Shown here piece after piece: positions 7,200 to 51,555 of a stretch of DNA of 64,000 bases. The translations under genes were made by a program, and so were the position numbers. The stretch spans positions 1 to 64,000 of IMG/VR virus record IMGVR_UViG_3300022725_000034; one strand, 5' to 3'. The notes beneath the pieces are model-generated. The model saw only the letters and a list, made by a program, of their open reading frames with translations. It made no database searches and was not told the origin of the DNA. Every line of letters starts with the position of its first letter. Positions within the stretch are counted from its first letter, which is position 1. The stretch is from a virus.

Positions 7200-7216
7200 T
7201 CCGAGGAGTTCCGGAT
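7199..7216 (+). promoter_or_regulatory. Ribosome-binding site in a hairpin loop (AAA+ gene)
   Basis: ATCCG / CGGAT, 5 bp, encloses the loop AGGAGTTC. The start codon of the 7215 gene is partly inside the 3' arm. Confidence 0.55.
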
Positions 7217-9503
7217 GTTGCAAGAAGCTATTGAGGCACGATTGCCTTTGATCTATGCCTTTGGGTCCGACCCGATTAACGACCTGTCCATCATTCAGGC
7301 CATGCTGTCCGAGAATGGGCTGTCGGTTGATGAGGCCTTATTCGATGTGGAGGAGGTTGTCGAGGATGCCCTGATCTCCAGCCTGTCGAAGGGCTACTGT
7401 GCGGTAGTGACCGACTCCCAGCTTGGATCATTCAACGTCAGTGCAGTCTACGAGGCGGCTAGTGACTGCGAGTTTGAGGAGGGCGGTATTCTGATCATCC
7501 TCTACTGCTCCGGTGAGGAACCTTCGGCCATGATCAAGGCCTCATTCTTCTGTGCCGGCAAAGTCCTTCCGGAGGAGAGGACAGTCAAGGAGGTTCTGAG
7601 TAACTACTACCCGGGCGACAAGTTGGAAGATGCGTTGCAGTATTACCGGGGGCTGACTCTCAACGAGATTGTCACCGTGGCGGCTATGTCCACCACCCTC
7701 CATGGGGATTGTTCTTTCTCGTCTGTCCTGAAGACTCGCAGGACCCTCATGGGGGAGACCCCGGGGTTGGAACTGGTGGATACGGCCATCGGCTTCTACA
7801 AGCCTGACATGAGCCTGAAGAACTACGCAGTGAAGGCCTCGAAGCTGTTTCATGTTGACCTGCCCGATTTCAGGCCGCGAGGGATCCTGCTGACCGGGTT
7901 GCCCGGGACCGGGAAGACCGAGGCCTCCAAGTATCTCGCCTCACTGCTTGAGGTGCCCCTGTTCCGGCTGGACATGGGTGGGATGATGACCAAGTGGCAG
8001 GGTGAGTGTCACTCCGCTGACACAGAGTATCTTACCCAGAGAGGATACCTGACTTTACCCGAGATCTTAGAAAATGACTTGTTGGCCACGGTCAACCCAG
8101 AGACGGGAGTCCTTGAATTTCAACCCTACTTGGAGAAAGTAGAGTACGATTTTGAAGGGGATTTGTTGCAGCTAGGTCAACATCGACCGTTAGGGCTTGT
8201 AACCCCCAATCATAGAATGTGGGTTTGTGGTTCAAAGCTTAGCAACCCCTCCTATGATTTTTGTGAGGCGGGCCTTTTAAGTACAGTGCCGTACAGAAAC
8301 TCTGATCGAGTTCGGATACCTACACCATTGCCTGTTGAGGGGAAGAAAGAGATATCCGACTTTAATGTGAGTCTAAAAACCGGAACTTCTTATAAGTTAA
8401 AGAAGACTGGTAAGTTTCCAATGAATGAGTTTCTTGAATTTCTTGGGTACTTTGTAACCGAGGGGTGTTGCCGCAAAGACAAACCGGGAATCATACTGCT
8501 GTCTCAAAACCCCGGACCTGTAGCTGATCGTATGATCACAGTAATGGAGGCTCTATTCGGAAAAGTCTGGACTATGGAGTCTCGGGGGTGCATTACACTT
8601 AAGTCTAGCCATTTGCTTGCTTGGGAATGGCTTGCCGACAACTGTGGTGGGTATAGTTATCAGAAAAGACTGCCAGAGTGGGTCTTTGACTGTCCCCCGT
8701 CTCAGCTAGAAATACTTTTAGAAGCCGCAATAGCTGGAGATGGGTCTTACGATTCTAAAGGTAGAGGTGGCGAATCGTTTGTCTTCAACCTGACAAGCTT
8801 TGAGTTGTCAGAGCAGATTGAGCGTATGGCTACTTTGTTAGGCTACTCCGTATCATCAAGGACTAGCCATCCTCCCGGAAACAGAAGACCGCAGCGCCAC
8901 ATCTATTGTAGCCCTAGAAAATCTAAAACCCTATCCGTGGCCGACATCACACCGGTAAAGTACTCAGGTAAAGTTGGATGCTTCACTGTCGCTAATGGGT
9001 TGCTCGTAACCCGGTATAAGGGGCAAACCTTAGTGTCTGGTAATAGCGAATCTAACCTGAAAAACGCTCTGCAGGTGGCTGTTAAGTCTGAGCCTTGTGT
9101 CCTGCTGCTGGATGAGGTGGAGAAGGTGCTTGGCAATGAATCGGACTCCGGCGGCTCTGTCTATCGGATGCTGTCTCAGCTTCTCTGGTGGCTTCAGTCT
9201 CACCAAAACAAGATCCTGACTGTTATGACCTGCAACGATATCAATAAGCTGCCTAAGGAGCTTTATCGTCAGGGTCGGGTGGATCAGGTAATCGAGTTCT
9301 ACGGCCTCAAAGGAAATGATGTAGACGACTTCGCCAATGATGTTCTGGACTACTTCTACAAATCCTCTGGACTCACGCTGGACGGTGGTGCTGTGGACGA
9401 GTTTGACCAGATGGTGAACAAGTGGGCAGGCGAGATCATTCACTTGTCTCAAGCCGAGATTATCCAAAGCGTGAAGGAGTTGATCATCAAGTCTAACTTT
9501 TGA
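7215..9503 (+). CDS. AAA+ ATPase interrupted by an intein
   Basis: A 762-residue precursor; removing the 346-residue intein leaves 416 residues. Residues 1-200 are an N-terminal domain of unknown family. The ATPase core follows: Walker A GLPGTGKT (about 229-236), a pore-type segment GGMMTKWQGE, then after the intein SESNLKNAL, Walker B VLLLDEVEK, sensor-1-like VMTCND, and RQGRVDQ as arginine-finger region. The intein splits the conserved GE-SE step of AAA+ proteins between Glu and Ser. ATP-driven remodelling near the replication fork is the likely role (clamp-loader-like or protein unfoldase); substrate unknown. Start at ATG 7215 behind AGGAG. The promoter at 9500 overlaps its stop codon. Confidence 0.8.
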   Translation: MLQEAIEARLPLIYAFGSDPINDLSIIQAMLSENGLSVDEALFDVEEVVEDALISSLSKGYCAVVTDSQLGSFNVSAVYEAASDCEFEEGGILIILYCSGEEPSAMIKASFFCAGKVLPEERTVKEVLSNYYPGDKLEDALQYYRGLTLNEIVTVAAMSTTLHGDCSFSSVLKTRRTLMGETPGLELVDTAIGFYKPDMSLKNYAVKASKLFHVDLPDFRPRGILLTGLPGTGKTEASKYLASLLEVPLFRLDMGGMMTKWQGECHSADTEYLTQRGYLTLPEILENDLLATVNPETGVLEFQPYLEKVEYDFEGDLLQLGQHRPLGLVTPNHRMWVCGSKLSNPSYDFCEAGLLSTVPYRNSDRVRIPTPLPVEGKKEISDFNVSLKTGTSYKLKKTGKFPMNEFLEFLGYFVTEGCCRKDKPGIILLSQNPGPVADRMITVMEALFGKVWTMESRGCITLKSSHLLAWEWLADNCGGYSYQKRLPEWVFDCPPSQLEILLEAAIAGDGSYDSKGRGGESFVFNLTSFELSEQIERMATLLGYSVSSRTSHPPGNRRPQRHIYCSPRKSKTLSVADITPVKYSGKVGCFTVANGLLVTRYKGQTLVSGNSESNLKNALQVAVKSEPCVLLLDEVEKVLGNESDSGGSVYRMLSQLLWWLQSHQNKILTVMTCNDINKLPKELYRQGRVDQVIEFYGLKGNDVDDFANDVLDYFYKSSGLTLDGGAVDEFDQMVNKWAGEIIHLSQAEIIQSVKELIIKSNF
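8007..9044 (+). other. Intein in the AAA+ ATPase (346 aa, LAGLIDADG type)
   Basis: Begins with Cys (CHSADTEYLTQRGYLTLPEI, block A) at codon 265 of the host protein and ends LVSGN before Ser+1. Block B is visible as VTPNHRMWV. Two LAGLIDADG-like motifs (FLGYFVTEG and LLEAAIAGDG) mark a homing endonuclease domain. The penultimate residue is Gly rather than the usual His, a known but less common variant. Base composition is visibly more AT-rich than the flanking exteins, as expected for a mobile insert. Confidence 0.9.
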
Positions 9504-11332: not shown

Positions 11333-11943
11333 TGTTAACGGTAAACAACGGCCCCAACGGGCCAGTAGATGATTCAGGGGATAGTCCCCTCTACGCTCCC
11401 GGGGTGTTGAATCCCGAGGTACATGGTCGCCTTGTAGCCGAGATCGGGAATATCGTTCGGCAGACCAATGTGCCGGAGAAGTACATCGCCAACTCCCTTG
11501 GCCAGTGGCTCAGCCCTGACGAGGTTCAGCTTATCCGGTCCATGCCTCAATGGGATCAGTCCGGGTTGCGGGGCCTTGTGTACTCAGGGAGCTTTTCAGC
11601 CCATACCCGCCTGCTTGCCATTTGCGGGTGTATGATCCGGAATTTCACCGATGCCCGGTTCCTGACGGTGCATCAGTTGATTGACGGGGTGAAGGCGGAC
11701 TCGCACCTTCGGGATGTGAGTGTCATTGCCATACCGGATCTGTACGTGTCGCTGCAGAACGGGAAGTCTGGCATGTCTCCGTGGCAGGTCGCTGACCTCT
11801 ACGATATTCTGCAGACCCGGGTTTCATCTGATCTGGTGACCTTCGGTTATGTGGACAACATGCAAAGGCTGAAGTCTGACTATGGGGAGGCGTTTCACGC
11901 CCTCATGTCCAATTTCCGTATTTTGAAAATGGCAGGGGCTTGA
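11332..11943 (+). CDS. Helicase loader-like protein without a P-loop
   Basis: A 203-residue protein; ATG 11332 overlaps the previous stop (TGATG). The C-terminal half resembles the AAA+ core end of DnaC/DnaI loaders: a Walker B-like strand VSVIAIPDLY, then a helix WQVADLYDILQTRVSS, then LVTFGYVDNM and LKSDYGEAFHALMSNF. No Walker A is present, and the Walker B acidic pair is incomplete, so it should not hydrolyse ATP. Its place between the initiator and the DnaB gene is where phages normally carry the loader. Function is inferred from context and this weak similarity. Confidence 0.55.
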   Translation: MLTVNNGPNGPVDDSGDSPLYAPGVLNPEVHGRLVAEIGNIVRQTNVPEKYIANSLGQWLSPDEVQLIRSMPQWDQSGLRGLVYSGSFSAHTRLLAICGCMIRNFTDARFLTVHQLIDGVKADSHLRDVSVIAIPDLYVSLQNGKSGMSPWQVADLYDILQTRVSSDLVTFGYVDNMQRLKSDYGEAFHALMSNFRILKMAGA

Positions 11944-14231
11944 TGAATACACTTGGAATGCGGCTGATCGCCGCGATTATCGACAGTAAGGATTCCTCTC
12001 AATTTGTAACAACAGGCATTCGGCGGGAGCTCTTGACCGGGCAGGAGGCTCAGGTATTCGATTTCGTGTCGGATTACATCAAGAGTTATGCAGCGGTGCC
12101 AAGCCGGGAGGTGGTGAATCAGAAGTTCGCTGTCACCGGGGTTTCACTGCCTGTGGCGGCGGATCCGCCAAAGTTCTATGCTGACGAGGTGCGGAGGCGG
12201 TTCATCAATGATCAGTTGGTTGAGGCGTTTAACCAGTGCGCTCCCTTTGTCAGTTCTGCCGGCATCAACTCGGATCCTGAGAAGGCCCTGTCCATCCTGA
12301 CTGAGAAGTGCATGTCGCTGTCAGTCACAAACAAGATGGGGCAGATCCTCGACTTCCGGGAGGCTGGGCCTTTGGTGTTGAAGAACTACCATGAAGCGCA
12401 GTACGGGACCGGGCATGAGCCTATCTATTTCGGGTGGGACTCACTGGACAAGGAGAGCTCAGGCGCCAGACCCGGGGATCTCATTTCCATTATTGGACGA
12501 CCAGCGGCAGGTAAGGCCCAGCCACTGGACGAACCCGTTAAGACCATGACCGGATGGAAGAGAATGGGGGATCTTAAAATCGGGGATGAGTTAGCGTCTA
12601 TTGATGGTTCCCCCAGTCATGTCACAGGGCTTCACCCTCAGGGAGATTTACAGGTTTTTGAAATTAAATTCAAAGATGGACGTACTACTCGATGTTGTAA
12701 GGATCACCTATGGGAAGTCTTCTACCGAGACTGGGATGCCCCACGGGTTGTATCTACGGAAGATTTAAGGTCTATGCTGGGTAAGAAGCGATATCAGAGG
12801 AGACTTTCTGTCCCGTTATCGGAAGGGCACTTTGGCCACACCAACCCGCTGCCGTTAGACCCATGGCTGCTTGGCTATCTGCTCGGTAACGGATGTTTCC
12901 GTACCAGCCTGAAGGTGTCATGCTCGGACCCGGAAGCCGTGGATCGGATGAGCTCCTGCTTGCCCCTAGAGTACTCTCTAGTCAAGGCATCCGGCGTTGA
13001 CTGGCGAATAACCCACGGCGTTAAGAAACGCGAGAATGAATTAGCTACCGAGTTAAAGAGTCTCGGACTTTGGGAGCACAAGAGCGTTGAAAAGTTTATC
13101 CCGGAATCCTATCTTTTGGCGGATAGATCTAGGCGGGTGGAGCTGCTGCAGGGTCTTATGGATTCGGATGGTTGGGTCGATAACGGATCTCCCAACTTCG
13201 CAACGTCAAGTCCGAGGTTGTCACAGGATGTTCAATCCTTGGTCAGGTCCCTTGGGGGTGTATGTCGGGTAACAGAAAGGCAGACGACGCATAATCCGAG
13301 CTATAGAATGGTGGTCTGTCTTCAGAAAACGAATGAGGCTTTTTGGTTACCGCGGAAGAAGCAGCAAACCCGGGAGACCCATAGCCATTCAGGAAGGCCC
13401 AGCACTCTTAGGAATGTTATAGAGTCCGTTGATTATGTAGGCACCGAGCCGTGCCAGTGCATTACGGTAAGCCACCCGAGGAGGCTATACCTAACGAAGG
13501 ACTATGTGGTGACTCATAACACCTTTCTCAGCCTGTCTGTGGCTCTCCACAACTGGATCCGACAGCGCAAGGTCGTGGTATTCCTGTCCATGGAAATGCT
13601 GCCAGAGATTCTGGCCATGCGAGCCACGGCCATGTATTCCCGGGTTAACCTCGGGTATCTGCAGAAGGGCCAGTTGTCCACGCCATCCTTCGAGAAGGTG
13701 AAGGCCAATCTGACCAAGGTGAACACGGATGAGGTTCCGTTCTATATTATCGACGGGAACCTGACCGCCACGGTGGAGGATCTATGGAACCTTGCTCAGA
13801 CCTTGAACCCGGACCACATCATTGTGGATGGGGCCTACCTGCTCTCGCACCCCAACCCAAGGCTTAACCGGTTCGACCGGGTGGCGGAAAACTCCCGGCT
13901 TTTGAAGTCGGCGGTTGCCACCAACCTTGGTGTCCCTGTCACCTGCTCATGGCAGTTCAACCGGGAAGCCGCCAAGAAGGCGAAAGCCAAGAAGGGAGGT
14001 GACAAGGGGGATCTGGAGGATATCGGTTTTGCTGATGAGATTGGTCAGTTGTCCAGTCTGGCCCTTGGCCTGTACCAGCCGGATTCCGTGGAGACGCTTC
14101 ACCAGAGGCAGATCCAGATCATCAAGGGGCGGAATGGCGAGTGTTCCGGCTTCAACATCAACTGGGATTTCCGGACTATGGATTTCTCAGAGGTTGTCCC
14201 GGAAACGGTGCAAGAACTGAATTATATTTGA
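11943..14231 (+). CDS. dnaB: Replicative DnaB-family helicase interrupted by a class 3 intein
   Basis: A 762-residue precursor; without the 335-residue intein it is 427 residues, normal for a phage DnaB. ATG 11943 overlaps the previous stop. An N-terminal helical domain (1-140) precedes the RecA-like motor: Walker A GRPAAGK-T is split by the intein directly after Lys. Then come VVVFLSMEM (motif H1a), HIIVDGAYLL (Walker B), TCSWQFNREA (H3) and IQIIKGRNGE (H4). It unwinds DNA 5'-3' as a hexamer at the fork. The preceding two genes are the presumed initiator and loader. Splicing is required because the P-loop is interrupted. Confidence 0.93.
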   Translation: MNTLGMRLIAAIIDSKDSSQFVTTGIRRELLTGQEAQVFDFVSDYIKSYAAVPSREVVNQKFAVTGVSLPVAADPPKFYADEVRRRFINDQLVEAFNQCAPFVSSAGINSDPEKALSILTEKCMSLSVTNKMGQILDFREAGPLVLKNYHEAQYGTGHEPIYFGWDSLDKESSGARPGDLISIIGRPAAGKAQPLDEPVKTMTGWKRMGDLKIGDELASIDGSPSHVTGLHPQGDLQVFEIKFKDGRTTRCCKDHLWEVFYRDWDAPRVVSTEDLRSMLGKKRYQRRLSVPLSEGHFGHTNPLPLDPWLLGYLLGNGCFRTSLKVSCSDPEAVDRMSSCLPLEYSLVKASGVDWRITHGVKKRENELATELKSLGLWEHKSVEKFIPESYLLADRSRRVELLQGLMDSDGWVDNGSPNFATSSPRLSQDVQSLVRSLGGVCRVTERQTTHNPSYRMVVCLQKTNEAFWLPRKKQQTRETHSHSGRPSTLRNVIESVDYVGTEPCQCITVSHPRRLYLTKDYVVTHNTFLSLSVALHNWIRQRKVVVFLSMEMLPEILAMRATAMYSRVNLGYLQKGQLSTPSFEKVKANLTKVNTDEVPFYIIDGNLTATVEDLWNLAQTLNPDHIIVDGAYLLSHPNPRLNRFDRVAENSRLLKSAVATNLGVPVTCSWQFNREAAKKAKAKKGGDKGDLEDIGFADEIGQLSSLALGLYQPDSVETLHQRQIQIIKGRNGECSGFNINWDFRTMDFSEVVPETVQELNYI
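12516..13520 (+). other. Class 3 intein inserted in the DnaB P-loop (335 aa)
   Basis: Starts with Ala (AQPLDEPVKTMTGWKRMGDL) and ends VVTHN before Thr+1. The class 3 signature is present: Trp in block B (DHLWEV), Cys in block F (EPCQCITVSHP) and Thr in block G (VTHN). In this class the block F Cys, not residue 1, starts splicing. Two LAGLIDADG motifs (LLGYLLGNG and LLQGLMDSDG) show a homing endonuclease domain. The insertion point matches that of known DnaB inteins. Confidence 0.9.
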
Positions 14232-21760: not shown

Positions 21761-22301
21761 TATAAGCACGAAGACTGGCCTTGCCTTTGTCACGGATGTC
21801 GATGGTCACGTTGAGATCATTCGGGGCGTAGAGGTGACCTCACCCCTGAAGAACGGTCAATCGGAAGTGGAACGGTGGGAGCAGTACATGGAAAAGCTGT
21901 TTCTTCAGATCGATCAGGTCCAGCAGGAGTACGGATCTATCGACCGGTGCTTCATGGAGGGCTATGCGTTCACCCCTCACCAAGGCCGTGACACTATCGT
22001 TACTCAGGTGGCTCATGGGACTTCGGCTCGGATGATGGTTGAGCACATGGACATCCCATACCATCAGGTATCTCCGGGCAACTGGAAGCAGTTTCTCACT
22101 GGTAGTGGGACCCTCAAGAAAGACCAGATTATGATGGCCCTGTTCAAGCACTTCGGATATGAGGCCAAGACGGACAACATTGCGGACGCCATGGTGATAG
22201 CATTGTTTGGCTTATATGCCAGTGCTAGTATCTCTGGCCCTGCATACAGGATGGACGCTATCAGCAAGTGGCGTAAGTCCAAATTCGGTGAGGTTTTTTG
22301 A
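21741..22301 (+). CDS. RuvC-like Holliday junction resolvase
   Basis: A 186-residue protein; ATG 21741 behind GGGGAGG overlaps the nuclease gene by 20 nt. The RuvC fold is plain: MGLDISTKTGLA (first Asp), CFMEGYAF (Glu), and DNIADAMVIALFG (paired Asp). It cuts four-way junctions after recombination and before packaging. It is the last gene of the recombination operon; the next promoter starts 20 bp after its stop. Confidence 0.87.
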   Translation: MLIMGLDISTKTGLAFVTDVDGHVEIIRGVEVTSPLKNGQSEVERWEQYMEKLFLQIDQVQQEYGSIDRCFMEGYAFTPHQGRDTIVTQVAHGTSARMMVEHMDIPYHQVSPGNWKQFLTGSGTLKKDQIMMALFKHFGYEAKTDNIADAMVIALFGLYASASISGPAYRMDAISKWRKSKFGEVF

Positions 22302-22349
22302 AATTAATTTCAGAAACCTTTTGACAAAACCTAATAATACTGTCAGTAT
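22299..22349 (+). promoter_or_regulatory. Palindrome plus phage promoter for 22403-23326
   Basis: TGAAATTAATTTCA (22299-22312), then TTGACA (22321-22326), 17-bp spacer and CAGTAT (22344-22349). The -10 is weaker than in the other copies. Confidence 0.75.
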
Positions 22350-22402
22350 TAACTTGTAGCCTAAACAAAACGGCAGTCAAAACGACAGTAAGGAGATATA
22401 TC

Positions 22403-23326
22403 ATGGCTGAATCCAAAGCAACTACCCCGGCAGCAAAAGCAGCATCTAAGGCCAAAGCTGCTCCCAAGAATCAAGAAGCTGAGACTCAGACCGAGACTCA
22501 GGAAACCGCAACCGTTAAGACCGGCACCAAAAAGGTGACCAAGGCGCAGGCCAAAAAGCTTGTCTCCGGTACTGACATCAAGACCTTCGATCTGAGCCAG
22601 ACCGCAACCGCTATTGAAATGTTGGGCGAAGCGGACATTATGAACATGATCCCGGACTTGGTCGATGAGACCGGTGTCAATGACTTCAAGCTGGGCGGTG
22701 CACTGGCCCGGGTACAGGAAAACAAGTGGTGGAAAGACGAAGACTACGAGAGCTTCAACGCCTACTGTGATGACCTGTTCTCTGGTGGCTACCGCAAGGC
22801 GATGTACCTGATCACGATCTACAAGAATCTGGTCGAGAAGGAAATCCCTTGGGATTCCGTGAAGGATATCGGTTGGTCCAAGCTGAAAGAACTCCTGCAA
22901 GTTATCACCAAGGATAACGTGGAAGACTGGGCGGCCAAGGCCAAGTCAATGACTCTGGTCCAGTTGGGTCAGTACGTGAAGGACTACCTCGCTTCTCAGA
23001 AGGAGGAAGGTGCAGGTGCTCCGACAGGGGACTCAGGCACCATGTCCACTCTGGCCTTCCGCCTCTTCAAGGATCAGCGGGACATCGTTGAGGCCACTCT
23101 GGAAACCGTTAAGACTCAGGCCGGCGATCCAGACATGAAGAAGGAAATGGCACTGGTTACCCTGTGTGATGAGATCTCCTCCGGATCATCTACAGGTCCA
23201 AAGAGTTCAGAGACTCCTCAGCAGGCTCTTGCTGGGGCGGCTAAGAAGCTGGGCTGGCAGGAAACGCTGACCCTTCTGGCTGAGCTCTTTGACGATGAGA
23301 TCGACATCAACGTCACTCAGAAGTAA
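22403..23326 (+). CDS. Hypothetical protein with Ala/Lys-rich disordered tail
   Basis: A 307-residue protein; AAGGAGAT before ATG 22403. Residues 1-52 are a low-complexity basic Ala/Lys/Thr/Gln tail. The rest is helical with two possible domains (LGGALARVQENKWWKDEDYESFNAYCDDLF; LAGAAKKLGWQETLTLLAELF). It forms a one-gene operon with its own promoter and terminator, implying substantial expression. A DNA-binding or nucleoid-like role is possible from the tail, but no family is recognised. Confidence 0.6.
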   Translation: MAESKATTPAAKAASKAKAAPKNQEAETQTETQETATVKTGTKKVTKAQAKKLVSGTDIKTFDLSQTATAIEMLGEADIMNMIPDLVDETGVNDFKLGGALARVQENKWWKDEDYESFNAYCDDLFSGGYRKAMYLITIYKNLVEKEIPWDSVKDIGWSKLKELLQVITKDNVEDWAAKAKSMTLVQLGQYVKDYLASQKEEGAGAPTGDSGTMSTLAFRLFKDQRDIVEATLETVKTQAGDPDMKKEMALVTLCDEISSGSSTGPKSSETPQQALAGAAKKLGWQETLTLLAELFDDEIDINVTQK

Positions 23327-23343
23327 GACCGGAATCCAAGACT

Positions 23344-23366
23344 GGGGCTGAGGCCCCCTTTCTTTT
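23344..23366 (+). terminator. Probable terminator
   Basis: Short stem GGGGC / GCCCC with loop TGAG, then CTTTCTTTT. Weak stem, good T run. Confidence 0.55.
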
Positions 23367-23374
23367 ACCTGATA

Positions 23375-23402
23375 TTGACAAAACCTCAAACTATAGTATA
23401 CT
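23375..23402 (+). promoter_or_regulatory. Phage promoter for the ParB/methyltransferase cassette
   Basis: TTGACA (23375-23380), 16-bp spacer, TATACT (23397-23402). The start of transcription would fall at about 23409, so the 23425 gene would have almost no leader. Confidence 0.8.
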
Positions 23403-23424
23403 GTAAAAAACAGTGGATAGATTC

Positions 23425-24303
23425 ATGATTAAGCAGTTTGCTTCCAAATCTAGTTCTGATATTTATCAGTGTGATACGGATAAGAAAACCTGCACTTGTC
23501 CGGGATTCAAGTTCAGTAACTGGTGTTGTCATCTTCAGGAAGCTGTAGGACCAAAACCACAAAGCCCTCAGTCTGATATGTTTGGGCCTCATCCAACAGA
23601 TGCTCCTGCTTTCGGTAGCTCAAAGCCGGTCAAACCCGCTTCGCCTGCTACCAAGAGTCAAGACTTTTACGATAAAGTTGATGAGCTAGAGGCGTTCTCT
23701 CGGACTCGACTTTCCAAAAATTTTATTATGCGCGATTTCCTATTTAGTGGGGTTGGGTCTATGGCTGGTATACCCGCTATGCCTGATGATCCAGATCATG
23801 TAATTGCGTCAGGTCGGGCGCTGTGTGAGAAAGTTCTTGAGCCTCTGAAAGCAGCGGGACTCAGGTTTTCTATCACTTATGGGTATATCAATCGAGAGAC
23901 CATGGATTTAGAAAGCCCTCACAGTGCCAGCAAGCCGAGATCTTCACGACCCCATCATTGGGATCGCAAGACTTTTGGAGACGGGATTTACTGCCGGGTA
24001 GATATACTCCCCTACAATGTTGAAGACAAAGAGCTAGATCGCTACGAGCTTGGCCGGTGGATCATGTACAACCTAGATGTTGACATGCTGATGCAATGGT
24101 GGAAGTCCAATGTTTATTGCATTACGATCAGTCCTAAGCCCCGCCGTGTATGGTTAGAGTGGTGTCCAAAAGGAGAGGGCGATGGGAACTCTAACAAGCG
24201 CACCTACATGGGCGAATACTACTGGAATAAAGTCTATCCAAACGAGCATCAACCCCCGAAGTTCGGACCATCCGCAAGCGGTGGCCGGATGTTTTGGAAT
24301 TAA
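23425..24303 (+). CDS. SWIM zinc-finger protein with M15-like domain
   Basis: A 292-residue protein from ATG 23425, or 296 from GTG 23413; neither has a clear ribosome-binding site and the leader is only 5-17 nt, so translation may be leaderless. Residues 20-40 match a SWIM zinc finger (CTCPGFKFSNWCCHL, the C-x-C ... C-x-H pattern). The C-terminal half resembles peptidase M15-type folds: LCEKVLEPLKAAG, ITYGYI, then PHHWDRKTFGDGIYCRVDIL, where the His and Asp could bind metal. It heads the ParB/methyltransferase/CmoA cassette. It might recognise DNA through the SWIM finger. Function unknown. Confidence 0.55.
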   Translation: MIKQFASKSSSDIYQCDTDKKTCTCPGFKFSNWCCHLQEAVGPKPQSPQSDMFGPHPTDAPAFGSSKPVKPASPATKSQDFYDKVDELEAFSRTRLSKNFIMRDFLFSGVGSMAGIPAMPDDPDHVIASGRALCEKVLEPLKAAGLRFSITYGYINRETMDLESPHSASKPRSSRPHHWDRKTFGDGIYCRVDILPYNVEDKELDRYELGRWIMYNLDVDMLMQWWKSNVYCITISPKPRRVWLEWCPKGEGDGNSNKRTYMGEYYWNKVYPNEHQPPKFGPSASGGRMFWN

Positions 24304-24313
24304 AGGAGCATTC

Positions 24314-25024
24314 ATGACTAACCTGTCAGACCTTAAAGAAGTACCGCTTTCTGAAATCAAACCCTACAGTAATAACCCAAGAATTAATGAGGCTGCTGTT
24401 TCTGATATAGCAGAATCTATCGAGGCTTTTGGATTTGTTGTTCCTATTCTTCTGGATGAGAAGAATACTATCATTGCCGGCCATACTCGTTGGGAAGCGG
24501 CAAAGACCTTAGATCTTGAATCCGCTCCTTGTCTCTATGCTAAAGGGCTCTCAGACGATCAGGTAAAAGCTTTTCGTATTGCCGACAACCGGTTGGCCGA
24601 AAACTCCAGTTGGAATATGGATCTTCTGGCGGAAGAAATGCAGGGCCTTGAGAAGTCTGGATTTCAATTGGGAGTGTTGGGCTTTTCTCGGGAAGAGTTA
24701 GACTGCATTCTCGAGCCAGTATCCGCAGATTGTCTGGATGACCTTAACCATGAATCTGTCTGTGGGGATGTTGAAAAAGTAGATCCCAATTCAGGACAGA
24801 GAACCACAGTTCGGATCAGTCTAGGCGAGTTCTCTTGGGTCATTCCTCTGAGCCAGTACAATGAGTGGGCATCTAACATGCGGGCCAGCTACTCAAGTGC
24901 TTCTGATGTAGTTGCTCACCTACAGAAAATTCTTGACCTCACTCCTGTCCATACAAGCAAAGAGGAAGAAACCGAGCCTACTTCAGAAACAGACGATAAA
25001 GTGGGGGATGGTTTTGATGAGTAA
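24314..25024 (+). CDS. ParB/Srx-domain protein
   Basis: A 236-residue protein; ATG 24314 behind AAAGGAG. Residues 10-100 are a ParB N-terminal domain: PLSEIKPYSNNPRIN, then ILLDEKNTIIAGHTRWEAAK (ParB box) and FRIADNRLAENSSWN, the form found at the start of phage modification methyltransferases. The usual DPPY methyltransferase part is absent; instead a short domain of about 110 residues and an acidic tail follow. ParB-fold proteins can bind DNA or nucleotides and some are kinases. It is translationally coupled to the next gene (8-nt overlap), which also has a ParB domain, so the two probably act together. Confidence 0.75.
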   Translation: MTNLSDLKEVPLSEIKPYSNNPRINEAAVSDIAESIEAFGFVVPILLDEKNTIIAGHTRWEAAKTLDLESAPCLYAKGLSDDQVKAFRIADNRLAENSSWNMDLLAEEMQGLEKSGFQLGVLGFSREELDCILEPVSADCLDDLNHESVCGDVEKVDPNSGQRTTVRISLGEFSWVIPLSQYNEWASNMRASYSSASDVVAHLQKILDLTPVHTSKEEETEPTSETDDKVGDGFDE

Positions 25025-26576
25025 TGGTGGGAAGTATGCCAAGTGCAAGATCAAACTGGTCCCCACAGAAACAGTAGTGGGGGCATCCTACAACCCACGA
25101 AAAACCGACCTTGACCGTCTTGAGCATGTGAAATCCTCACTAGAGCATCTGGGGTTTGTTCTTCCACTCTACGCCCAGTCGAAGACCGGGATACTATTGT
25201 CTGGTCACCAGCGTAGCAAAGCCGCTCATCTTCTCGGGTACACAAATCTCCCTGTGATGCACTTGAATGTTCCGGCCAAAGATGAGAAAGGTCTGAACCT
25301 CACATTCAACAAGGCAACCAACGACCTTGATGTGTCCAAGATTAACGCTAAAGCTGCGTATCAGGAGTTTGTTGAAAAGACTGCGGGGGAAGTAGATAAA
25401 GGAGATCCAGTCCCTCCAGATAGCTTCCCTTGTATGGAAACTGAGAAGATCGAAGTCAACACACTACTACACAGCCTCAGTCAGTTTGACGAGCTAACTG
25501 AGTACCATTTCAAGGTAGGATTGCCTCTCATTGTCCATAAGGCTTTTATGCCTCTTGTGGTTACAGAGTCTGGCGATCTGGTGAACGGTGCTTTCAGACT
25601 CTACGCCTATTGGAAAAAGGGCTTTGAGTTTTGCGACGTAGTGACTATCCCAGATAATAAGTACGAGTTCGCCAACTACAGTCTGAACCTCCTTGCCATG
25701 GACTTCGATGTTCAGGATCATTTCAAAGAAGAGCTTCGATATAACGCCTACAGAAGGTTATCAACCAGTAATCAGATTGTAGGCCTGTCTCGGACATTCT
25801 CTTACTTTCCCATGGGACGCACGATGCGTAACAGTCGTGGAACCTCCAAGATGCGTGATGGGCAAGTAGACGATCTGGATATGCTTCCCGACCGCAATCC
25901 GGAGGCAAGACGTAAATACCATGAATGCTATGGTAAAACCGTTGTCGATTTTGGGGCCGGAACTTTCCACGATAGTGAGCTTATGGAGAATGCTGGGTTC
26001 AACGTCTTGTCTTTCGAGCCGTATTATGTGAGAGAGACGGGGGAGCCGAGTTCCGACTTGTCTCGTCAATATGGGAAAGCCTTCCTCGACAAATTGCGTG
26101 AGACGAAGCGGGTGGATTCGGTAATCTCCAGTTTTACCCTGAACTCAATACCTCACCATAAGGATCGCATGGCGGTTCTATGCATCATTGCGGCATTGTG
26201 CCGGGTAGATTCAAAAGCTTTCCTTGGAACCCAGCCGGTTAGCCGAAGATCTCGGGGGGACGCTAGAAATAAGATGGATGCCAACATGGAGCCAAACATG
26301 GTCATTGGCCACTCCATGAACTTCAAGTCTCAGAAGTACTATCACAAGGAGGAGCTAGAGAAGATGGTGGGGGTGTTCTTCAACGATGTTAAAGTCACCA
26401 AACACTCTGGGACTCTTTACGTGAGAGCCCAGTACCCCAAGAGAGTACGGCCAGAACTTCTGGGGGAGGCACTAGAGATAGAGTTCAACATGCCCTACTC
26501 AGACGGAACAACCATGGATCTGGTAGACGAGGCTAAAGAGTCTTTCTCAAAATATCTGGGGGTGAAGATACCCTGA
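25017..26576 (+). CDS. ParB domain fused to a class I methyltransferase
   Basis: A 519-residue protein from ATG 25017. Residues 10-90 are ParB-like (VVGASYNPRKTDLDRLEHVK, LLSGHQRSKAAHLLGY). Residues 130-260 hold a second segment that again reads like a ParB core (LVVTESGDLVNGAFRLYAYW). From about residue 295 a Rossmann methyltransferase follows: VVDFGAGTFHDSELM (SAM-binding motif I), VLSFEPYY (acidic strand 2), VISSFTLNSIPHHKDR (motif IV position). No DPPY or PCQ motif is present, so it is not a standard DNA N6/N4 or C5 methylase. With the CmoA-like gene downstream it could use carboxy-SAM. Substrate unknown; DNA is my preferred guess. Confidence 0.7.
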   Translation: MSNGGKYAKCKIKLVPTETVVGASYNPRKTDLDRLEHVKSSLEHLGFVLPLYAQSKTGILLSGHQRSKAAHLLGYTNLPVMHLNVPAKDEKGLNLTFNKATNDLDVSKINAKAAYQEFVEKTAGEVDKGDPVPPDSFPCMETEKIEVNTLLHSLSQFDELTEYHFKVGLPLIVHKAFMPLVVTESGDLVNGAFRLYAYWKKGFEFCDVVTIPDNKYEFANYSLNLLAMDFDVQDHFKEELRYNAYRRLSTSNQIVGLSRTFSYFPMGRTMRNSRGTSKMRDGQVDDLDMLPDRNPEARRKYHECYGKTVVDFGAGTFHDSELMENAGFNVLSFEPYYVRETGEPSSDLSRQYGKAFLDKLRETKRVDSVISSFTLNSIPHHKDRMAVLCIIAALCRVDSKAFLGTQPVSRRSRGDARNKMDANMEPNMVIGHSMNFKSQKYYHKEELEKMVGVFFNDVKVTKHSGTLYVRAQYPKRVRPELLGEALEIEFNMPYSDGTTMDLVDEAKESFSKYLGVKIP

Positions 26577-26577
26577 G

Positions 26578-26591
26578 TGAAATTAATTGCA
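26578..26591. repeat. Palindrome copy after the ParB-methyltransferase gene
   Basis: TGAAATTAATTGCA 2 bp after the stop codon, just before a terminator. Confidence 0.65.
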
Positions 26592-26599
26592 AAAATCAC

Positions 26600-26624
26600 A
26601 AGGCTCCTTCGGGGGCCTTTTTAT
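26600..26624 (+). terminator. Rho-independent terminator after the ParB-methyltransferase gene
   Basis: Stem AAGGCTCC / GGGGCCTT closed by a TTCG tetraloop, followed by TTTTTAT. The palindrome copy at 26578-26591 lies between the stop codon and this hairpin. Confidence 0.8.
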
Positions 26625-26866
26625 GTCGTGTAAAAAGTGGGGGAGCAGGTCTACCCAGAGAGTCTATACCTAGAGAACTCTTTGACATTAATTGCAAAAA
26701 TTTTGGGGGATCCGGGGGAGCAATAACACCACTTCCCAGAGAGCTACTAAGAGACCTTAACGGGATCCCTATTGGCGACAACCCAATACCCGTAGTAGAC
26801 TCATCAGCACACGTGTAGAAAACTCTATACTTCACCTAAACCTCTTTAATACTTAAAGGATTTCCC
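26625..26866. other. 242-bp intergenic stretch without a convincing gene
   Basis: Holds a second palindrome copy, TGACATTAATTGCA at 26683-26696, and two loosely similar GGGGGAGCA ... CCCAGAGAG segments (about 26640 and 26715) that read like imperfect direct repeats. No phage-type promoter with a usable -10 is visible, so how the CmoA-like gene is transcribed is unclear. A 79-codon minus-strand ORF here has no supporting evidence. Confidence 0.4.
26683..26696. repeat. Palindrome copy in the 26.6-26.9 kb gap
   Basis: TGACATTAATTGCA; the preceding T makes TTGACA, but no -10 follows. Confidence 0.6.
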
Positions 26867-27592
26867 ATGCAAGATAGTCTTAGTCATAAGCCGCCCTCTA
26901 AGTGGCAGTTTGATGAAGAGGTAACTCGTTGTTTTGATGACATGTTGTTGAGGTCTATCCCCAATTATGAGCAAGCCCAGACCCTTATGGCTAAGCTTAC
27001 AGTTAAGGCGTTGGAGCAGATGTCCGGGGGTACTGTTCTGGATCTCGGAGTGTCACTGGCAAACTCGTTCAAACTCATTGAGCACTACGCCAAAAACAAA
27101 CCCTCGTTATTCGTGAACTATGTTGGTCTCGATAATTCAGAGCCCATGGTGAAGTCCGCAAAAGAGCAATTCACCAATGCTCGATACTTCCATGCCAATG
27201 TTCAAGATTTTATGAAGTTCTATAAAGACCCTATCGGGGTGGCCATCCTTTCCCTGACTCTCCAGTTCATACCTGTGGAGCATCGGCAAGAGCTTTTGTC
27301 TCAGATTTTTCAGCGCCTGAAGAAGGGCGGCTGTGTCTTCTTGTTTGAAAAGTGTCTTGGGGCAGATAGCACAGAAGAGGATCTGTTCACTGAGATGTAC
27401 TACGACTTTAAGCAGTCCAATGGGTATACCATGGACTCCATATTGGCCAAGCGAAAATCTCTGGAAAACGTACTTGTACCCCTAGACCAAACCAGAAATC
27501 GAGAAATGCTGGAGCGTGAGGGCTTTCGTGTTCATTTGCTCTCTCACTGGTGCAACTTCTCCCTTATGGTGGGTTACAAAGATACGGAGTAA
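26867..27592 (+). CDS. cmoA: CmoA-like carboxy-S-adenosylmethionine synthase
   Basis: A 241-residue protein, the same length as bacterial CmoA (about 247). It aligns along its whole length: WQFDEEVTRCFDDMLLRSIPNY (CmoA WTFDERV...DMIQRSVPGY), LDLGVSLANSF (DLGCSLGAAT), VGLDNSEPMV, ILSLTLQFI, YDFKQSNGYT and KRKSLENVLVP. The KR-x-x-LENV segment, which carries the Arg that grips the carboxylate of Cx-SAM in CmoA, is kept; the glycine-rich loop is altered (C to V, G to N). CmoA makes Cx-SAM from SAM and prephenate; CmoB uses it on tRNA U34. No CmoB is visible here, but a ParB-methyltransferase is. AAAGGA precedes ATG 26867. Confidence 0.85.
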   Translation: MQDSLSHKPPSKWQFDEEVTRCFDDMLLRSIPNYEQAQTLMAKLTVKALEQMSGGTVLDLGVSLANSFKLIEHYAKNKPSLFVNYVGLDNSEPMVKSAKEQFTNARYFHANVQDFMKFYKDPIGVAILSLTLQFIPVEHRQELLSQIFQRLKKGGCVFLFEKCLGADSTEEDLFTEMYYDFKQSNGYTMDSILAKRKSLENVLVPLDQTRNREMLEREGFRVHLLSHWCNFSLMVGYKDTE

Positions 27593-27594
27593 GC

Positions 27595-28524
27595 ATGGCT
27601 CTCAAGATCGACCAGAAGTCCGCCGAAAAGGTGGAGGTTGATCCGTCTCTCTCCGCTAATGCACAGAAGCGTTTGTCTGAACGTCTCAAGAAGGAGCAGC
27701 GACGGGTCATTGCCGCCAATGCGCGGGAAGCCAAAGCCCAGAAGAAAGCCAGAGATGCTTCAGAGAAAGTAGAATCTTTGGAGTCTCGGCTTAAGAGGTT
27801 GGAGGCTGAGCTAAAAGCTCATAAATCCCCAAAGCCTAAAGACCCGAGCAATCGTCTGGGGGCAAAAAAGAATAACCCCTACCCAAAAGATTTACCCAGA
27901 GAGGAAATAGATCGCTTAGCTAATACAGACCCCACATCTGAAGAGGTTCCGGATCAAAGACTGACAGAATACTCAGCAGAGATTGATCTTCGCCGTAAGC
28001 AGGTAGCAAGGTTGATGCTCCGGGGTGTTCCTATATACACGATTGCCAGCTATCTGAAAGTCAGTCATAGAACTGTAATGAGGGATGCTGAGGTAGTTCG
28101 TAAGCAGTGGTCAGAGTCTATTGGATCCTTTGACATCAGCACGGCTCTGGGCGAATCCATGGCGTTTTATAGGGAGGCTCGAAATATAGCTCTCAGGACA
28201 GCAACTGACACTACAGACAAAGGCATAAAGATGAGTGACAAACTCAACGCCCTGAAGACTGCAATTACTTCAGAATCTGATATGCATAAATTCCTACAAG
28301 CGGTTGGAGTTTACGACTTGTTTGATCTGAAAGCTTTGACCCGAGGGGAAGAGATGACAGATGACGGGACAGATTTTGAAAACTTTTTGGGTGACCTGTC
28401 TCAGGCTATTGATGTGGATCGGGATCCAGTCAGTGGGGACTTTGGTCTGGCGGCGGAAGACTCTCATCAAGATTTGAATCAGGACTTCACTGTAGATGAT
28501 GACTTTACGGATACCGATATATGA
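27595..28524 (+). CDS. Terminase small subunit-like protein
   Basis: A 309-residue protein from ATG 27595, which begins 2 nt after the previous stop; it starts MALKI. Residues 50-90 are a coiled coil (ASEKVESLESRLKRLEAELK). Residues 130-165 form a helix-turn-helix (VARLMLRGVPIYTIASYLKVSHRTVMRDAEVV). The C-terminus is acidic. Coiled coil plus HTH directly before and overlapping the large terminase by 4 nt is the normal arrangement for the subunit that recognises the packaging site. Assignment rests on context and domain layout. Confidence 0.72.
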   Translation: MALKIDQKSAEKVEVDPSLSANAQKRLSERLKKEQRRVIAANAREAKAQKKARDASEKVESLESRLKRLEAELKAHKSPKPKDPSNRLGAKKNNPYPKDLPREEIDRLANTDPTSEEVPDQRLTEYSAEIDLRRKQVARLMLRGVPIYTIASYLKVSHRTVMRDAEVVRKQWSESIGSFDISTALGESMAFYREARNIALRTATDTTDKGIKMSDKLNALKTAITSESDMHKFLQAVGVYDLFDLKALTRGEEMTDDGTDFENFLGDLSQAIDVDRDPVSGDFGLAAEDSHQDLNQDFTVDDDFTDTDI

Positions 28525-30353
28525 TCCGCCACCCACAAGTAGAGCAATTGTTGTTACAGACTGAGAGAGGACTTAGCGGAATACGCAACCCTCGCTTCCG
28601 CAAATTCTTAAGGCAGGCCCTTGAAGAGGCGGCAGAAGGTGATCTGGAAAAGCTCAGGGCAGCGCAGAACTACAAACGGTTCCCGGTTCCTGTTGAAGAG
28701 TTTTTGCTGAGTGATGTGTACATGGACGCCAAAAAGTTCCTGTACCCTGCGGTGGTAGACGAGTTGATTGAGGTCAACAGTGGGAAGTACGTTGAAGCTC
28801 TTTTTGTGGGGGGCATTGGTTCAGCCAAGACTACTTCAGCCTTGTACACCAATGCCTATCAGATATACCTGTTAAGCTGCCTCAAGAGCCCTCATAAGCC
28901 ATTTGGGCTGGACCCCAGTTCGGAGATGCTGTTTGCCTTCCAGAACAGGACAGAGACGCTTGCAAAGACGGTATCCTATAACCGTTTCCGTGCCATGATC
29001 AGGCACAGCCCCTATTTCCAGAAGCACTTCATGTTTGACAAGCGCATGGAGAGTCGAATGCTGTTCCCTTACAGGATCGAAGTGGTTCCTTGTGGTGCAA
29101 GCCAGTTTGGAACCATCGGCCAGAACGTCATTGGAGGGGTCATTGACGAGTTGAACTTCATGGATGTGACTAGCAATTCTAAGCGTAGTGTGGATGGCGG
29201 AACTTACGACCAAGCGCAAACCACCTACAACTCGATAGCTACTCGTCGTAAGACCCGATTCTCGTCACAGGGTAAACTTCCGGGGATCCTGTGTCTGGTT
29301 TCTTCTCGTCGCTATCCGGGGCAGTTTACTGATCATAAAGAAATGGAAGCCAAGACTGACCCGACGATTTACATCTATGATAAGCGGGTGTGGGAGATAA
29401 AACCCGATAGCTTCAAAGAGCCCAAGTTCCCGGTATTCATCGGTGACGTTAGCCGTAAGCCTCGCATTGTAGAAGATCCGGATGAGTTGGAGGAAGTGGA
29501 TGAAGAAGATTTGAATCTCTACGACTTCATACCGGAAACATTCAGACAGGATTTCCAAAACGACATCTATCAGTCTCTCCGGGATGTGGCTGGTGTAAGC
29601 ACCTTGGCCCTAACTCCGTTTATTACTAACGTGGCTGCGGTGAACGAGTGCTTCGGAAAAAGGCCTTCACTTCTGACACTCGATAAAGCAGACATGATAA
29701 CCAAACGGCCTAATGCAGATCCTAAGGCTGTCAGTAATCCCCACCTTCCAAGATTCGTTCATGGGGATTTTTCTATTAATGGAGATAGCACCGGGGTGGT
29801 AATGGGGCATGTCTCCGGGTTTAAGGCTGTACCTCGGGGGGACACGGTTGAAGTACTTCCGATCATTGAGATCGATTTTGCTTTTGAGATTGTGGCTCCT
29901 AAGAATGGGGAGGTTGAGTTCCACCGGATAAGGACAATGCTATACAACCTCAGGGACAAAATGGGGATCAACATCAAGTGGGCGACCTTTGATAGTTTCC
30001 AATCCAGAGACTCTATTCAGACGCTGAGGCAGCAGGGGATCCGCACCGGTCTCCAATCTATGGATACCAAGGTTACTCCCTACGTGGTGCTTAAACAGGC
30101 GTTGTATGATGAAAGGGTGAGGATCCCTGAGAATCAGAAGCTGAAGCTGGAACTACTCTCCCTTGAGTACGATACAAGGAAGGACAAAATAGACCACCCT
30201 TCAACAGGGTCCAAGGATATAGCTGACTCACTGGCCGGGGTGGTGTTCGGGTTGACTAATAGACGTGAGATCTGGACTTCATTCGATATCTCGCCCAGTC
30301 GTATACCTGAAGAGTTGAAAGAAAGGCTTAAGAAGGACAACACAAAAGAGTGA
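28521..30353 (+). CDS. terL: Terminase large subunit
   Basis: A 610-residue protein; ATGA overlap with the small subunit. ATPase: Walker A-like GGIGSAKTT (about 97-105), coupling region, and Walker B GGVIDELNF. Nuclease: HGDFSINGDSTG (first Asp), ATFDSFQSRDS (second), GSKDIADSLAG (third), the RNase H-like triad of TerL proteins. It cuts the concatemer and drives DNA into the prohead through the portal (59866). Its stop codon TGA forms the first bases of the palindrome at 30351. Confidence 0.92.
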   Translation: MIRHPQVEQLLLQTERGLSGIRNPRFRKFLRQALEEAAEGDLEKLRAAQNYKRFPVPVEEFLLSDVYMDAKKFLYPAVVDELIEVNSGKYVEALFVGGIGSAKTTSALYTNAYQIYLLSCLKSPHKPFGLDPSSEMLFAFQNRTETLAKTVSYNRFRAMIRHSPYFQKHFMFDKRMESRMLFPYRIEVVPCGASQFGTIGQNVIGGVIDELNFMDVTSNSKRSVDGGTYDQAQTTYNSIATRRKTRFSSQGKLPGILCLVSSRRYPGQFTDHKEMEAKTDPTIYIYDKRVWEIKPDSFKEPKFPVFIGDVSRKPRIVEDPDELEEVDEEDLNLYDFIPETFRQDFQNDIYQSLRDVAGVSTLALTPFITNVAAVNECFGKRPSLLTLDKADMITKRPNADPKAVSNPHLPRFVHGDFSINGDSTGVVMGHVSGFKAVPRGDTVEVLPIIEIDFAFEIVAPKNGEVEFHRIRTMLYNLRDKMGINIKWATFDSFQSRDSIQTLRQQGIRTGLQSMDTKVTPYVVLKQALYDERVRIPENQKLKLELLSLEYDTRKDKIDHPSTGSKDIADSLAGVVFGLTNRREIWTSFDISPSRIPEELKERLKKDNTKE

Positions 30354-30410
30354 AATTAATTTCAAAAAGTGGTCTCAGGTGTTTGACTAAACTCTAAATT
30401 GTGGTATTAT
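30351..30410 (+). promoter_or_regulatory. Palindrome plus phage promoter for 30456-30653
   Basis: TGAAATTAATTTCA (30351-30364), then TTGACT (30383-30388), 16-bp spacer, TATTAT (30405-30410). Confidence 0.85.
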
Positions 30411-30436
30411 AAGTACATAGAGTTAAGAAATCACAC

Positions 30437-30451
30437 GAATTAAGGAGATTC
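30437..30451 (+). promoter_or_regulatory. Ribosome-binding site in a hairpin loop
   Basis: GAAT / ATTC stem with heptaloop TAAGGAG, 4 nt before ATG 30456. Confidence 0.6.
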
Positions 30452-30455
30452 ACCA

Positions 30456-30653
30456 ATGAACATTAAGACTGCAAGAACCTTGAAGCCGGGGTCGAAAGTA
30501 AAGTACCCGCCTGACCGGGGATCTCCCGGAGGTGTAGGCACTGTGCGATCCGCCAGTGTTGATCGAGTCCACAAGAATATCCGTGGGGAAGAATACATCT
30601 GGGTCGGCCTGAAAGAAGGTGGTGTCTGGCCCTCTAACCGATTGATGTGGTGA
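30456..30653 (+). CDS. Small hypothetical protein
   Basis: A 65-residue protein in a one-gene operon. Beta-rich with a KOW/SH3-like feel (LKPGSKVKYPPDRGSPGGVG then YIWVGLKEGGVWPSNRL), as in small barrel proteins that bind nucleic acid or partners. No family recognised. Confidence 0.55.
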   Translation: MNIKTARTLKPGSKVKYPPDRGSPGGVGTVRSASVDRVHKNIRGEEYIWVGLKEGGVWPSNRLMW

Positions 30654-30662
30654 GACTATTTT

Positions 30663-30710
30663 TGAAATTAATTGCAAAGTATTTGACAAAACTCCTAATT
30701 ATGGTAGTCT
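30663..30710 (+). promoter_or_regulatory. Palindrome plus phage promoter for 30766-31124
   Basis: TGAAATTAATTGCA (30663-30676), TTGACA (30683-30688), 16-bp spacer, TAGTCT (30705-30710). Confidence 0.85.
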
Positions 30711-36183: not shown

Positions 36184-36410
36184 CTGAGAAAGACCTGTAC
36201 CAAAAAATGGAAGATGCCGGCGTTGTCAGTGGGAACCACGCCTCGGACCTGTATGTGTTCGACACCCATGCGGCCCGCGAGATCCTGAATCAGTACCCAC
36301 TTGAGAAGGCGAACTCCAGCCGGTTCAGGTGCAACGTCACTGAGCGGCGGGGTATCGAGATCCCGTTTGCCTACTCACCCCATTTTGGCAAGGCGTTTGC
36401 TGCGCTATAA
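36180..36410 (+). CDS. Small hypothetical protein (76 aa)
   Basis: ATGA overlap with the previous gene. Soluble, with YQKMEDAGVVSGNHASDLYV resembling an N-terminal helix-turn unit. It ends the operon before the terminator at 36430. Function unknown. Confidence 0.5.
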   Translation: MTEKDLYQKMEDAGVVSGNHASDLYVFDTHAAREILNQYPLEKANSSRFRCNVTERRGIEIPFAYSPHFGKAFAAL

Positions 36411-36429
36411 TCACCCCAAGCACGATCAT

Positions 36430-36453
36430 GGCCCCAAACTCGGGGCCTTTTTT
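36430..36453 (+). terminator. Rho-independent terminator
   Basis: Stem GGCCCC / GGGGCC with loop AAACTC, then TTTTTT. Its T run provides the TTTAT (36451-36455) that precedes the mini-element. Confidence 0.85.
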
Positions 36454-36455
36454 AT

Positions 36456-36528
36456 CAAAGCGCGAAAAACCCCGTCCTTTCCGCCTAACGGCGGCAAACC
36501 GTAGGTTTGAGGGCGGGGTGGATGTCAA
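36456..36528 (+). mobile_element. 73-bp IS200/IS605-type mini-element without transposase
   Basis: Preceded by TTTAT and beginning CAAAGCGCGAAAAACCCC, close to the left end of the complete element at 44852. Its last 59 bp (36470-36528) are identical to the right end 46449-46507, ending GATGTCAA. It folds as an outer 8-bp stem (CCCCGTCC / GGGCGGGG) with two inner hairpins (CCGCC / GGCGG; AAACC / GGTTT). It carries no ORF, so it depends on TnpA in trans. Confidence 0.85.
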
Positions 36529-36540
36529 GGAGCAGTATTC

Positions 36541-36849
36541 ATGGCGATGAGTCCAGAAGAACAGGAGTTCACGGTTCGTAAGCTGATGCGGGGTATTGAG
36601 TATCGAGTAAAAGCGAACCTGTTGACCAACGATAAGATTGCCGAGATTACCAAGCAGAGCAAAAACACCGTGAAGAAAGTGACTGGGCCGGGAGGTAAGG
36701 ATCATCCCGCCTACCCCTTGGTGATGCCGTACATCAAGGATCGAGACCGATACCGGTCCAAGGCCTATGAGTTGGAGCCTGAGCAGGTGGCGAGGTCTAT
36801 GGGGCACCCTTTGGATGAAGTGCTGGAGTTGTATCACAATCTCATTTGA
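36541..36849 (+). CDS. Small DNA-binding-like protein
   Basis: A 102-residue protein. Its ribosome-binding site AAGGAG is formed across the right edge of the mini-element. Helices in EFTVRKLMRGIEYRVKANLL and NDKIAEITKQSKNTVKKVTG suggest an HTH. The stop lies next to the palindrome at 36847. Function unknown; a regulator is plausible. Confidence 0.55.
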   Translation: MAMSPEEQEFTVRKLMRGIEYRVKANLLTNDKIAEITKQSKNTVKKVTGPGGKDHPAYPLVMPYIKDRDRYRSKAYELEPEQVARSMGHPLDEVLELYHNLI

Positions 36850-36894
36850 CATTAATTTCAAATTCTTTGACAAAACCCGACACTATGGTAGACT
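36847..36894 (+). promoter_or_regulatory. Palindrome plus phage promoter for 36936 onward
   Basis: TGACATTAATTTCA (36847-36860), TTGACA (36867-36872), 16-bp spacer, TAGACT (36889-36894). Confidence 0.85.
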
Positions 36895-39594: not shown

Positions 39595-39672
<78 letters not shown>

Positions 39673-45329: not shown

Positions 45330-45399
45330 AATTTGACCAAGTTTGCAAAAGTGATATAACATGCTATAATAGAAGAAATAATACCACTAAAGACCAATT

Positions 45400-46507: not shown

Positions 46508-46635
46508 CGGGACTCGGTTGCTCGGGGTGTCGGAGAGGATTTCAGGAAAGTTGTTCACCTGTTGGGGATCTGATACTGGCCACACTGGAAGCTGACGTAT
46601 AAGATTGGGTGACATTCCATCTGAAAGAGCTTTCC

Positions 46636-51552: not shown

Positions 51553-51555
51553 GGC

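Follow-up and report, generated by a model that had tools for sequence, protein, structure and literature searches.

A ParB-methyltransferase fusion linked to CmoA in phage genomes and its possible role in carboxy-SAM-based DNA modification

We analysed a window of 64,000 nucleotides (positions 1 to 64,000 of IMG/VR virus record IMGVR_UViG_3300022725_000034), which sits inside a record of 67,152 bases that carries tailed-phage genes. The window contains a module of three genes encoding a stand-alone ParB protein, a fusion of ParB domains with a class I methyltransferase, and a homologue of CmoA, the predicted synthase of carboxy-S-adenosylmethionine (Cx-SAM). Our best reading is that the fusion represents another class of Cx-SAM-dependent DNA carboxymethyltransferase, one that does not act at C5 and that stands in the place of the known enzyme, CmoX. 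CmoX belongs to the CmoA-CmoX-CmoY pathway of Yang et al. (Nat Commun, December 2025; PMC12783734): in the Synechococcus phage S-B43, Cx-SAM is made by a phage CmoA, CmoX carboxymethylates cytosine at C5 and CmoY ligates glycine to the product. CmoX is the only natural Cx-SAM-dependent DNA enzyme described so far. The general idea of phage DNA carboxymethylation from Cx-SAM is already published in that work; what is described here is the CmoA link of phrog_5475, the family to which the fusion belongs.

The proposed mechanism has three steps. CmoA would turn S-adenosylmethionine (SAM) and host prephenate into Cx-SAM, as its homology to a proven phage CmoA suggests. The fusion would then transfer the carboxymethyl group from Cx-SAM, a step to which gene linkage, CmoX exclusion and partner swapping point. 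The acceptor would be phage DNA, which the ParB domains and the separate ParB protein would help to hold, and it would more likely be an exocyclic amine or hydroxyl than cytosine C5. A negatively charged base would guard against restriction, and carboxymethyl may be the final mark, because most fusion records lack a CmoY-like ligase. We regard this whole chain, a Cx-SAM-based phage DNA modification with a transferase other than CmoX, as moderately probable. The stronger proposal, a new enzyme class in phages and prophages of many bacterial phyla that carboxymethylates an exocyclic nitrogen (or hydroxyl) of DNA and yields a base undescribed in natural DNA, is offered tentatively.

Linkage of the fusion to CmoA and exclusion of CmoX

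IMG/VR was scanned with aligned fusion sequences; of the 196 relatives returned, 80 were fetched, and loci with at least 2.5 kb of downstream sequence served as the test set; a scan of viral contigs with the window fusion as a single sequence recovered no close relatives. A CmoA homologue was found downstream of the fusion in 65 of the 66 viral loci tested, the one exception (L057) having other reading frames in its place. The GTDB genomes yielded 67 further fusion loci, from Clostridia, Verrucomicrobia, Alphaproteobacteria, Vibrionaceae, Bacteroidales, Desulfovibrionaceae and others. In these independently fetched bacterial loci, 47 of which were testable, CmoA stood beside the fusion 45 times and an SPPC enzyme was found in none. 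The CmoA profile behind these counts derives from CmoA homologues at loci of this same type; the independent TIGR00740 model also found a match in all 13 records tested. Within the phage collection, at least 80% of the fusion was matched by 14 records: 12 Pseudomonas phages, the Aeromonas phage HJ05 and the Gordonia phage Evaa. The CmoA search of the collection lists the same groups, and CmoA adjoins the fusion in SM1, HJ05 and Evaa, which were inspected. Where a phage was matched through the ParB domain alone, its group does not appear in the CmoA search. A lack of co-occurrence elsewhere had been named beforehand as a refuting condition; the original idea survived this test, and by these counts the association exceeds chance.

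The reverse scan, starting from CmoA, returned 368 relatives. Among the 80 loci fetched, 58 carry a C5-methyltransferase, 15 the fusion, none both and 7 neither (Fisher p 3e-11, which is indicative only, as related loci are not independent). The published marks of CmoX, SPPC and R350, are present in 57 of the 58 aligned C5 rows, the exception being a Staphylococcus phage enzyme. Conversely, a C5-methyltransferase of any sort occurs in 3 of 50 fusion records, and none of the three has SPPC. When 89 CmoA homologues were placed on a tree, at least 10 switches of partner were counted; this was a rapidly made tree with long branches, and no more than two switches are required by its starred branches alone. 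The hypothesis that all fusion-linked CmoAs form one clade was rejected (p-AU 2.9e-6). Closely related CmoAs may indeed have different partners: the fusion-linked CmoA of L165 and the CmoX-linked one of L147 are 64.7% identical, and further pairs with differing partners are 63.0% (L040/L115), 60.0% (L098/L175) and 51.1% (Evaa/TurkishDelight) identical. Because CmoAs that are 51-65% identical have different partners, both transferases would be expected to need the same CmoA product.

These results bear on the view that the fusion methylates DNA with SAM in the ordinary way and that CmoA acts separately, for example by lowering SAM against SAM-dependent defences. Its general class I fold would fit such an enzyme, SAM depletion by CmoA has been raised as a possibility (PMC12783734), and a terminator-like site parts the fusion from cmoA in the window. 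However, the near-obligate pairing with CmoA and the exclusion of CmoX are hard to explain without a shared metabolite, and we consider this view unlikely.

The other known components of Cx-SAM pathways were sought by family searches, and no hidden CmoX, CmoY or CmoB was found in the window record. PF00145, the C5-methyltransferase family, is missing from the window record, SM1, HJ05 and Evaa, and PF00733, the family of CmoY-like ligases, from the window record, SM1, Evaa and 50 further records. HJ05 gives a weak PF00733 match to an Asn_synthase-like ATP-ligase gene (L003:10287-11504), possibly a CmoY-type partner for the fusion system.

The CmoA homologue and the fusion protein

As originally predicted, the third gene of the module encodes a CmoA homologue that retains the KR-x-x-LENV segment: TIGR00740 matches residues 11-238 (145.6 bits, E 2e-42), and the structures matched are PDB 4gek, 1im8 and 4iwn. 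The conserved stretch, AKRKSLENV, aligns to SQKRSMLENV, with the positions of E. coli Lys198 and Arg199 kept. In E. coli CmoA, Arg199 contacts the Cx-SAM carboxylate. That the phage CmoA-like proteins are plain methyltransferases rather than Cx-SAM synthases could be argued from their scores, since all phage members tested fall below the curated TIGR00740 cut-off of 193.3 bits, and from position 199, which is E, T, N or A in many of them. Yet the experimentally proven SpCmoA makes Cx-SAM (PMC12783734) with a score of 115.6 bits and with Glu where the E. coli enzyme has Arg199; a phage enzyme of proven activity thus fails the cut-off. The window protein scores higher and keeps the Arg. We find this explanation highly unlikely. 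The loss of Arg199 in the CmoAs of SM1, HJ05 and Evaa was considered as a sign of inactivity and set aside, as the proven SpCmoA lacks the Arg too.

The second gene encodes, again as predicted, a ParB-class I methyltransferase fusion, with weak Pfam matches to ParB_N and Methyltransf_23 and neither a DPPY-type nor a PCQ/SPPC motif. It is a full-length member of phrog_5475 (6.6e-77, residues 12-515), a family with no assigned function in the sources searched and whose member in Evaa, gp2, is called a 'ParB-N-terminal-like domain methyltransferase'. A ParB_N domain (about residues 9-106) is followed by a second ParB-like segment (about 175-212, with NGxxRL) and by the methyltransferase domain (about 295-475); the homologue in L010 also has two ParB stretches. 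The AlphaFold model is good (predicted local distance difference test 85, predicted template modelling score 0.82), and Foldseek places its ParB half nearest to ParB-CTP structures. At the position of motif IV the fusion has L-N-S-I-P-H (family consensus LNSVPF) and not (D/N/S)PP(Y/F/W); in this it resembles class I enzymes of the UbiG and CmoA type at the corresponding place.

Residue conservation was read across 71 aligned rows. Invariant or nearly so are NPR, SGHQR and FNRxTND in the first ParB domain, NGxxRL in the second segment and, in or after the methyltransferase domain, DFGAG, E334-P335, N376-S377-x-P379, D383-R384, E425, K437, Q439, K440 and E489-F490. E425, K437, Q439 and K440, which lie between strands 5 and 6, are candidate contacts of the donor carboxylate or of the acceptor. 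A comparison is offered by the Bacteroides phage BS-TP3 (L006:7378-9386), where a ParB gene and a distant relative of the fusion precede the terminase; this locus is not among the CmoA matches. The relative, possibly a SAM-using cousin, keeps DFGAG and E334 and has lost R384, E425, K437 and K440, which makes these four residues candidates for the carboxylate contact.

Proposed acceptor of the carboxymethyl group

The proposed DNA system resembles the CmoA-CmoX-CmoY pathway, whose products are 5-carboxymethylcytosine and its glycine amide, in having a phage CmoA, often an adjoining ParB, one predicted transferase and no CmoB. Unlike CmoX, the window transferase lacks PF00145, SPPC and R350 and carries ParB domains of its own, and, unlike that pathway, most fusion records lack a CmoY-type ligase. 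With the catalytic cysteine of PCQ/SPPC missing from the fusion, cytosine C5 is probably not the acceptor. The discoverers of CmoX found no N6A or N4C carboxymethyltransferase linked to CmoA (PMC12783734), and none of the papers searched was relevant to N6-carboxymethyladenine in phage DNA. One premise, that such fusions in phages generally act on DNA, cannot simply be carried over: phages do encode ParB-DNA methyltransferase fusions of the phrog_498 type, likewise with an N-terminal ParB_N joined to a methyltransferase, but the window fusion matches phrog_498 through its ParB part only, and its methyltransferase domain does not fall with any known DNA type.

The classical user of Cx-SAM is the tRNA enzyme CmoB, and the original prediction had named tRNA modification as the alternative. 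CmoA could feed Cx-SAM to a host CmoB, or the fusion itself could act on tRNA or another RNA: phrog_4752 and RefSeq label the cmoA gene as a tRNA methyltransferase, the methyltransferase domain is unlike known DNA types, and the window contains one tRNA gene. With the CmoA-CmoB pathway of tRNA cmo5U34 the module shares CmoA, presumably Cx-SAM, and a transferase of class I fold. Here, however, CmoB is missing, as had been noticed at the outset (PF08003 was found neither in the 67,152-base record nor in any of 13 records), and the genes are tied to ParB and terminase, a setting that suggests DNA. The module also occurs in the actinobacterial phage Evaa and in clostridial genomes, while Gram-positive bacteria, Clostridia included, use TrmR and mo5U instead of cmo5U (PMC6599085). 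The fusion is swapped with a proven DNA enzyme, CmoX, and the phage tRNA, Pro(GGG), lacks U34. Because CmoB is missing and the relatives in the Gordonia phage and clostridial genomes belong to hosts that are not known to make cmo5U, a tRNA role is unlikely, and we judge the RNA explanation as a whole quite improbable.

Several observations weigh against the proposed mechanism. In the Foldseek comparison the closest structures to the methyltransferase domain are those of small-molecule methyltransferases, which leaves a non-DNA acceptor possible. The SAM motif of the window CmoA lacks the last Gly (DLGVSLANS vs DLGCSLGAA). BS-TP3 provides one case only, and its alignment is weak in the region concerned; in the window record, moreover, the terminator-like hairpin at 26600-26619 separates the fusion from cmoA. 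The first of these points would fit a fusion that uses Cx-SAM on a protein or small molecule: the nearest solved structures are small-molecule or peptide methyltransferases, for example glycine sarcosine N-methyltransferase, and Cx-SAM serves bacterial natural-product synthesis (cited in PMC12783734). The fusion nevertheless takes the position equivalent to that of CmoX beside ParB and terminase and carries ParB domains in the same chain, and we hold a protein or small-molecule acceptor to be as improbable as an RNA one. All together, the outline of the original prediction, Cx-SAM used on phage DNA rather than tRNA, is well supported by the S-B43 precedent, the linkage, the exclusion of CmoX and the partner swapping; its inclusion of a SWIM gene in the cassette is not.

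Gene run, window and significance

The cassette had been predicted to comprise four genes, and all four reading frames are open (Table 1). ParB, the fusion and CmoA are conserved together, and the ParB gene stands 5' of the fusion in nearly all loci; its product is a ParB_N protein, as predicted. Of features to be compared with ParB partition proteins, the ParB_N domain and a GHxR-type motif are present. The first gene does not belong with them. Its SWIM zinc-finger call is below the Pfam cut-off (E 0.46), and an M15-like domain is suggested by eye only. In the phage collection, residues 69-245 are matched in SM1-type Pseudomonas phages alone, where the homologous gene lies about 36 kb from the other three, and the gene was not found at the other fusion/CmoA loci inspected. 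It was rejected as a cassette member, and because it does not travel with the rest the module has three genes, not four. The predicted position just before the terminase was borne out.

Table 1. Coordinates of the gene run and its flanking features in the window
Feature	Position	Strand	Remarks
Terminator-like hairpin	23344-23357		just 5' of the promoter-like site
Sigma-70-like promoter, TTGACA-16-TATACT	23375..23402	+	11/12 consensus match only; 5' of the gene run
Gene with SWIM-like Cys/His motif and M15-like region	23425..24303	+	outside the conserved module
Stand-alone ParB_N protein, core module gene 1	24314..25024	+	PF02195 2e-8; phrog_620 2e-51
ParB-methyltransferase fusion, phrog_5475	25017..26576	+	ParB_N + class I methyltransferase
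Stretch between two exact ATTAATTGCAAAAAT copies	26582..26701	+	none expected by chance
Intrinsic-terminator-like hairpin	26600..26619	+	AAGGCTCCTTCGGGGGCCTT then TTT; between fusion and cmoA
CmoA homologue, predicted carboxy-SAM synthase	26867..27592	+	TIGR00740 145.6 bits
Helix-turn-helix protein, probable small terminase subunit (context)	27595..28524	+	HTH_23 5e-4; same place in SM1-type loci
Large terminase subunit (context)	28521..30353	+	phrog_2 4e-6; gene order repeated in ~20 loci

Good ribosome-binding sites precede the ParB gene (AAAGGAG) and cmoA (AAAGGA), and the start of the fusion overlaps the end of the ParB gene. The regional count of promoter matches is near chance level. The 15-base repeat ATTAATTGCAAAAAT flanks the hairpin between fusion and cmoA with exact copies at 26582-26596 and 26687-26701, 105 bases apart; a copy with one mismatch lies at 30658-30672 on the opposite strand. 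An Rfam scan of 22200-30500 found no RNA element, and PADLOC gave no more than a generic methyltransferase match and matches of ParB domains to a model of type II methyltransferases. At 28 other loci of one lineage (L039:2353-2772 and 27 more) a HAD-like gene (LLDLNYTLVENS...TARP; LLDLNYTL...TARP), absent from the window, lies between fusion and cmoA; DxNxT replaces DxDxT in its product, and no informative Pfam or NCBIfam match was obtained for the members tested.

Elsewhere in the window, Pfam detects LAGLIDADG-type intein-like inserts in an AAA ATPase and a DnaB-like helicase (7215-9503, 11940-14231), and a PolA-type DNA polymerase (55234-59838) apparently has three intein-like inserts, judged by eye. 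An unusual phage cargo is a 594-residue protein with PPDK_N and PEP-utilizers domains (49159-50943), in which Pfam finds no match to the C-terminal phosphoenolpyruvate/pyruvate barrel; two DSP/PTP-type phosphatase-like genes (51535-52131 and 53231-53914) lie near it. An IS200/IS605-like transposase pair was recognised by eye at 44928-46467 (TnpA-like, 44928-45362, minus strand; TnpB-like, 45400-46467). Similar translated minus-strand strings (TSTPPSNLRFAAVRRKGRGF) at 36337-36873 and 46394-46615 suggest a repeated element. The sole tRNA gene, tRNA-Pro(GGG), is at 39595-39671 on the minus strand.

If the proposed function is correct, CmoX and an unrelated second transferase replace each other as partners of the same CmoA. 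This would extend what is known of DNA chemistry, and viral DNA would have a second, chemically different disguise made of acidic carboxymethyl groups. The label 'tRNA methyltransferase' on many phage genes would be corrected, and the enzyme would offer a handle for labelling DNA with carboxyl groups. The existence of such a second transferase is testable in phages with cultured hosts.

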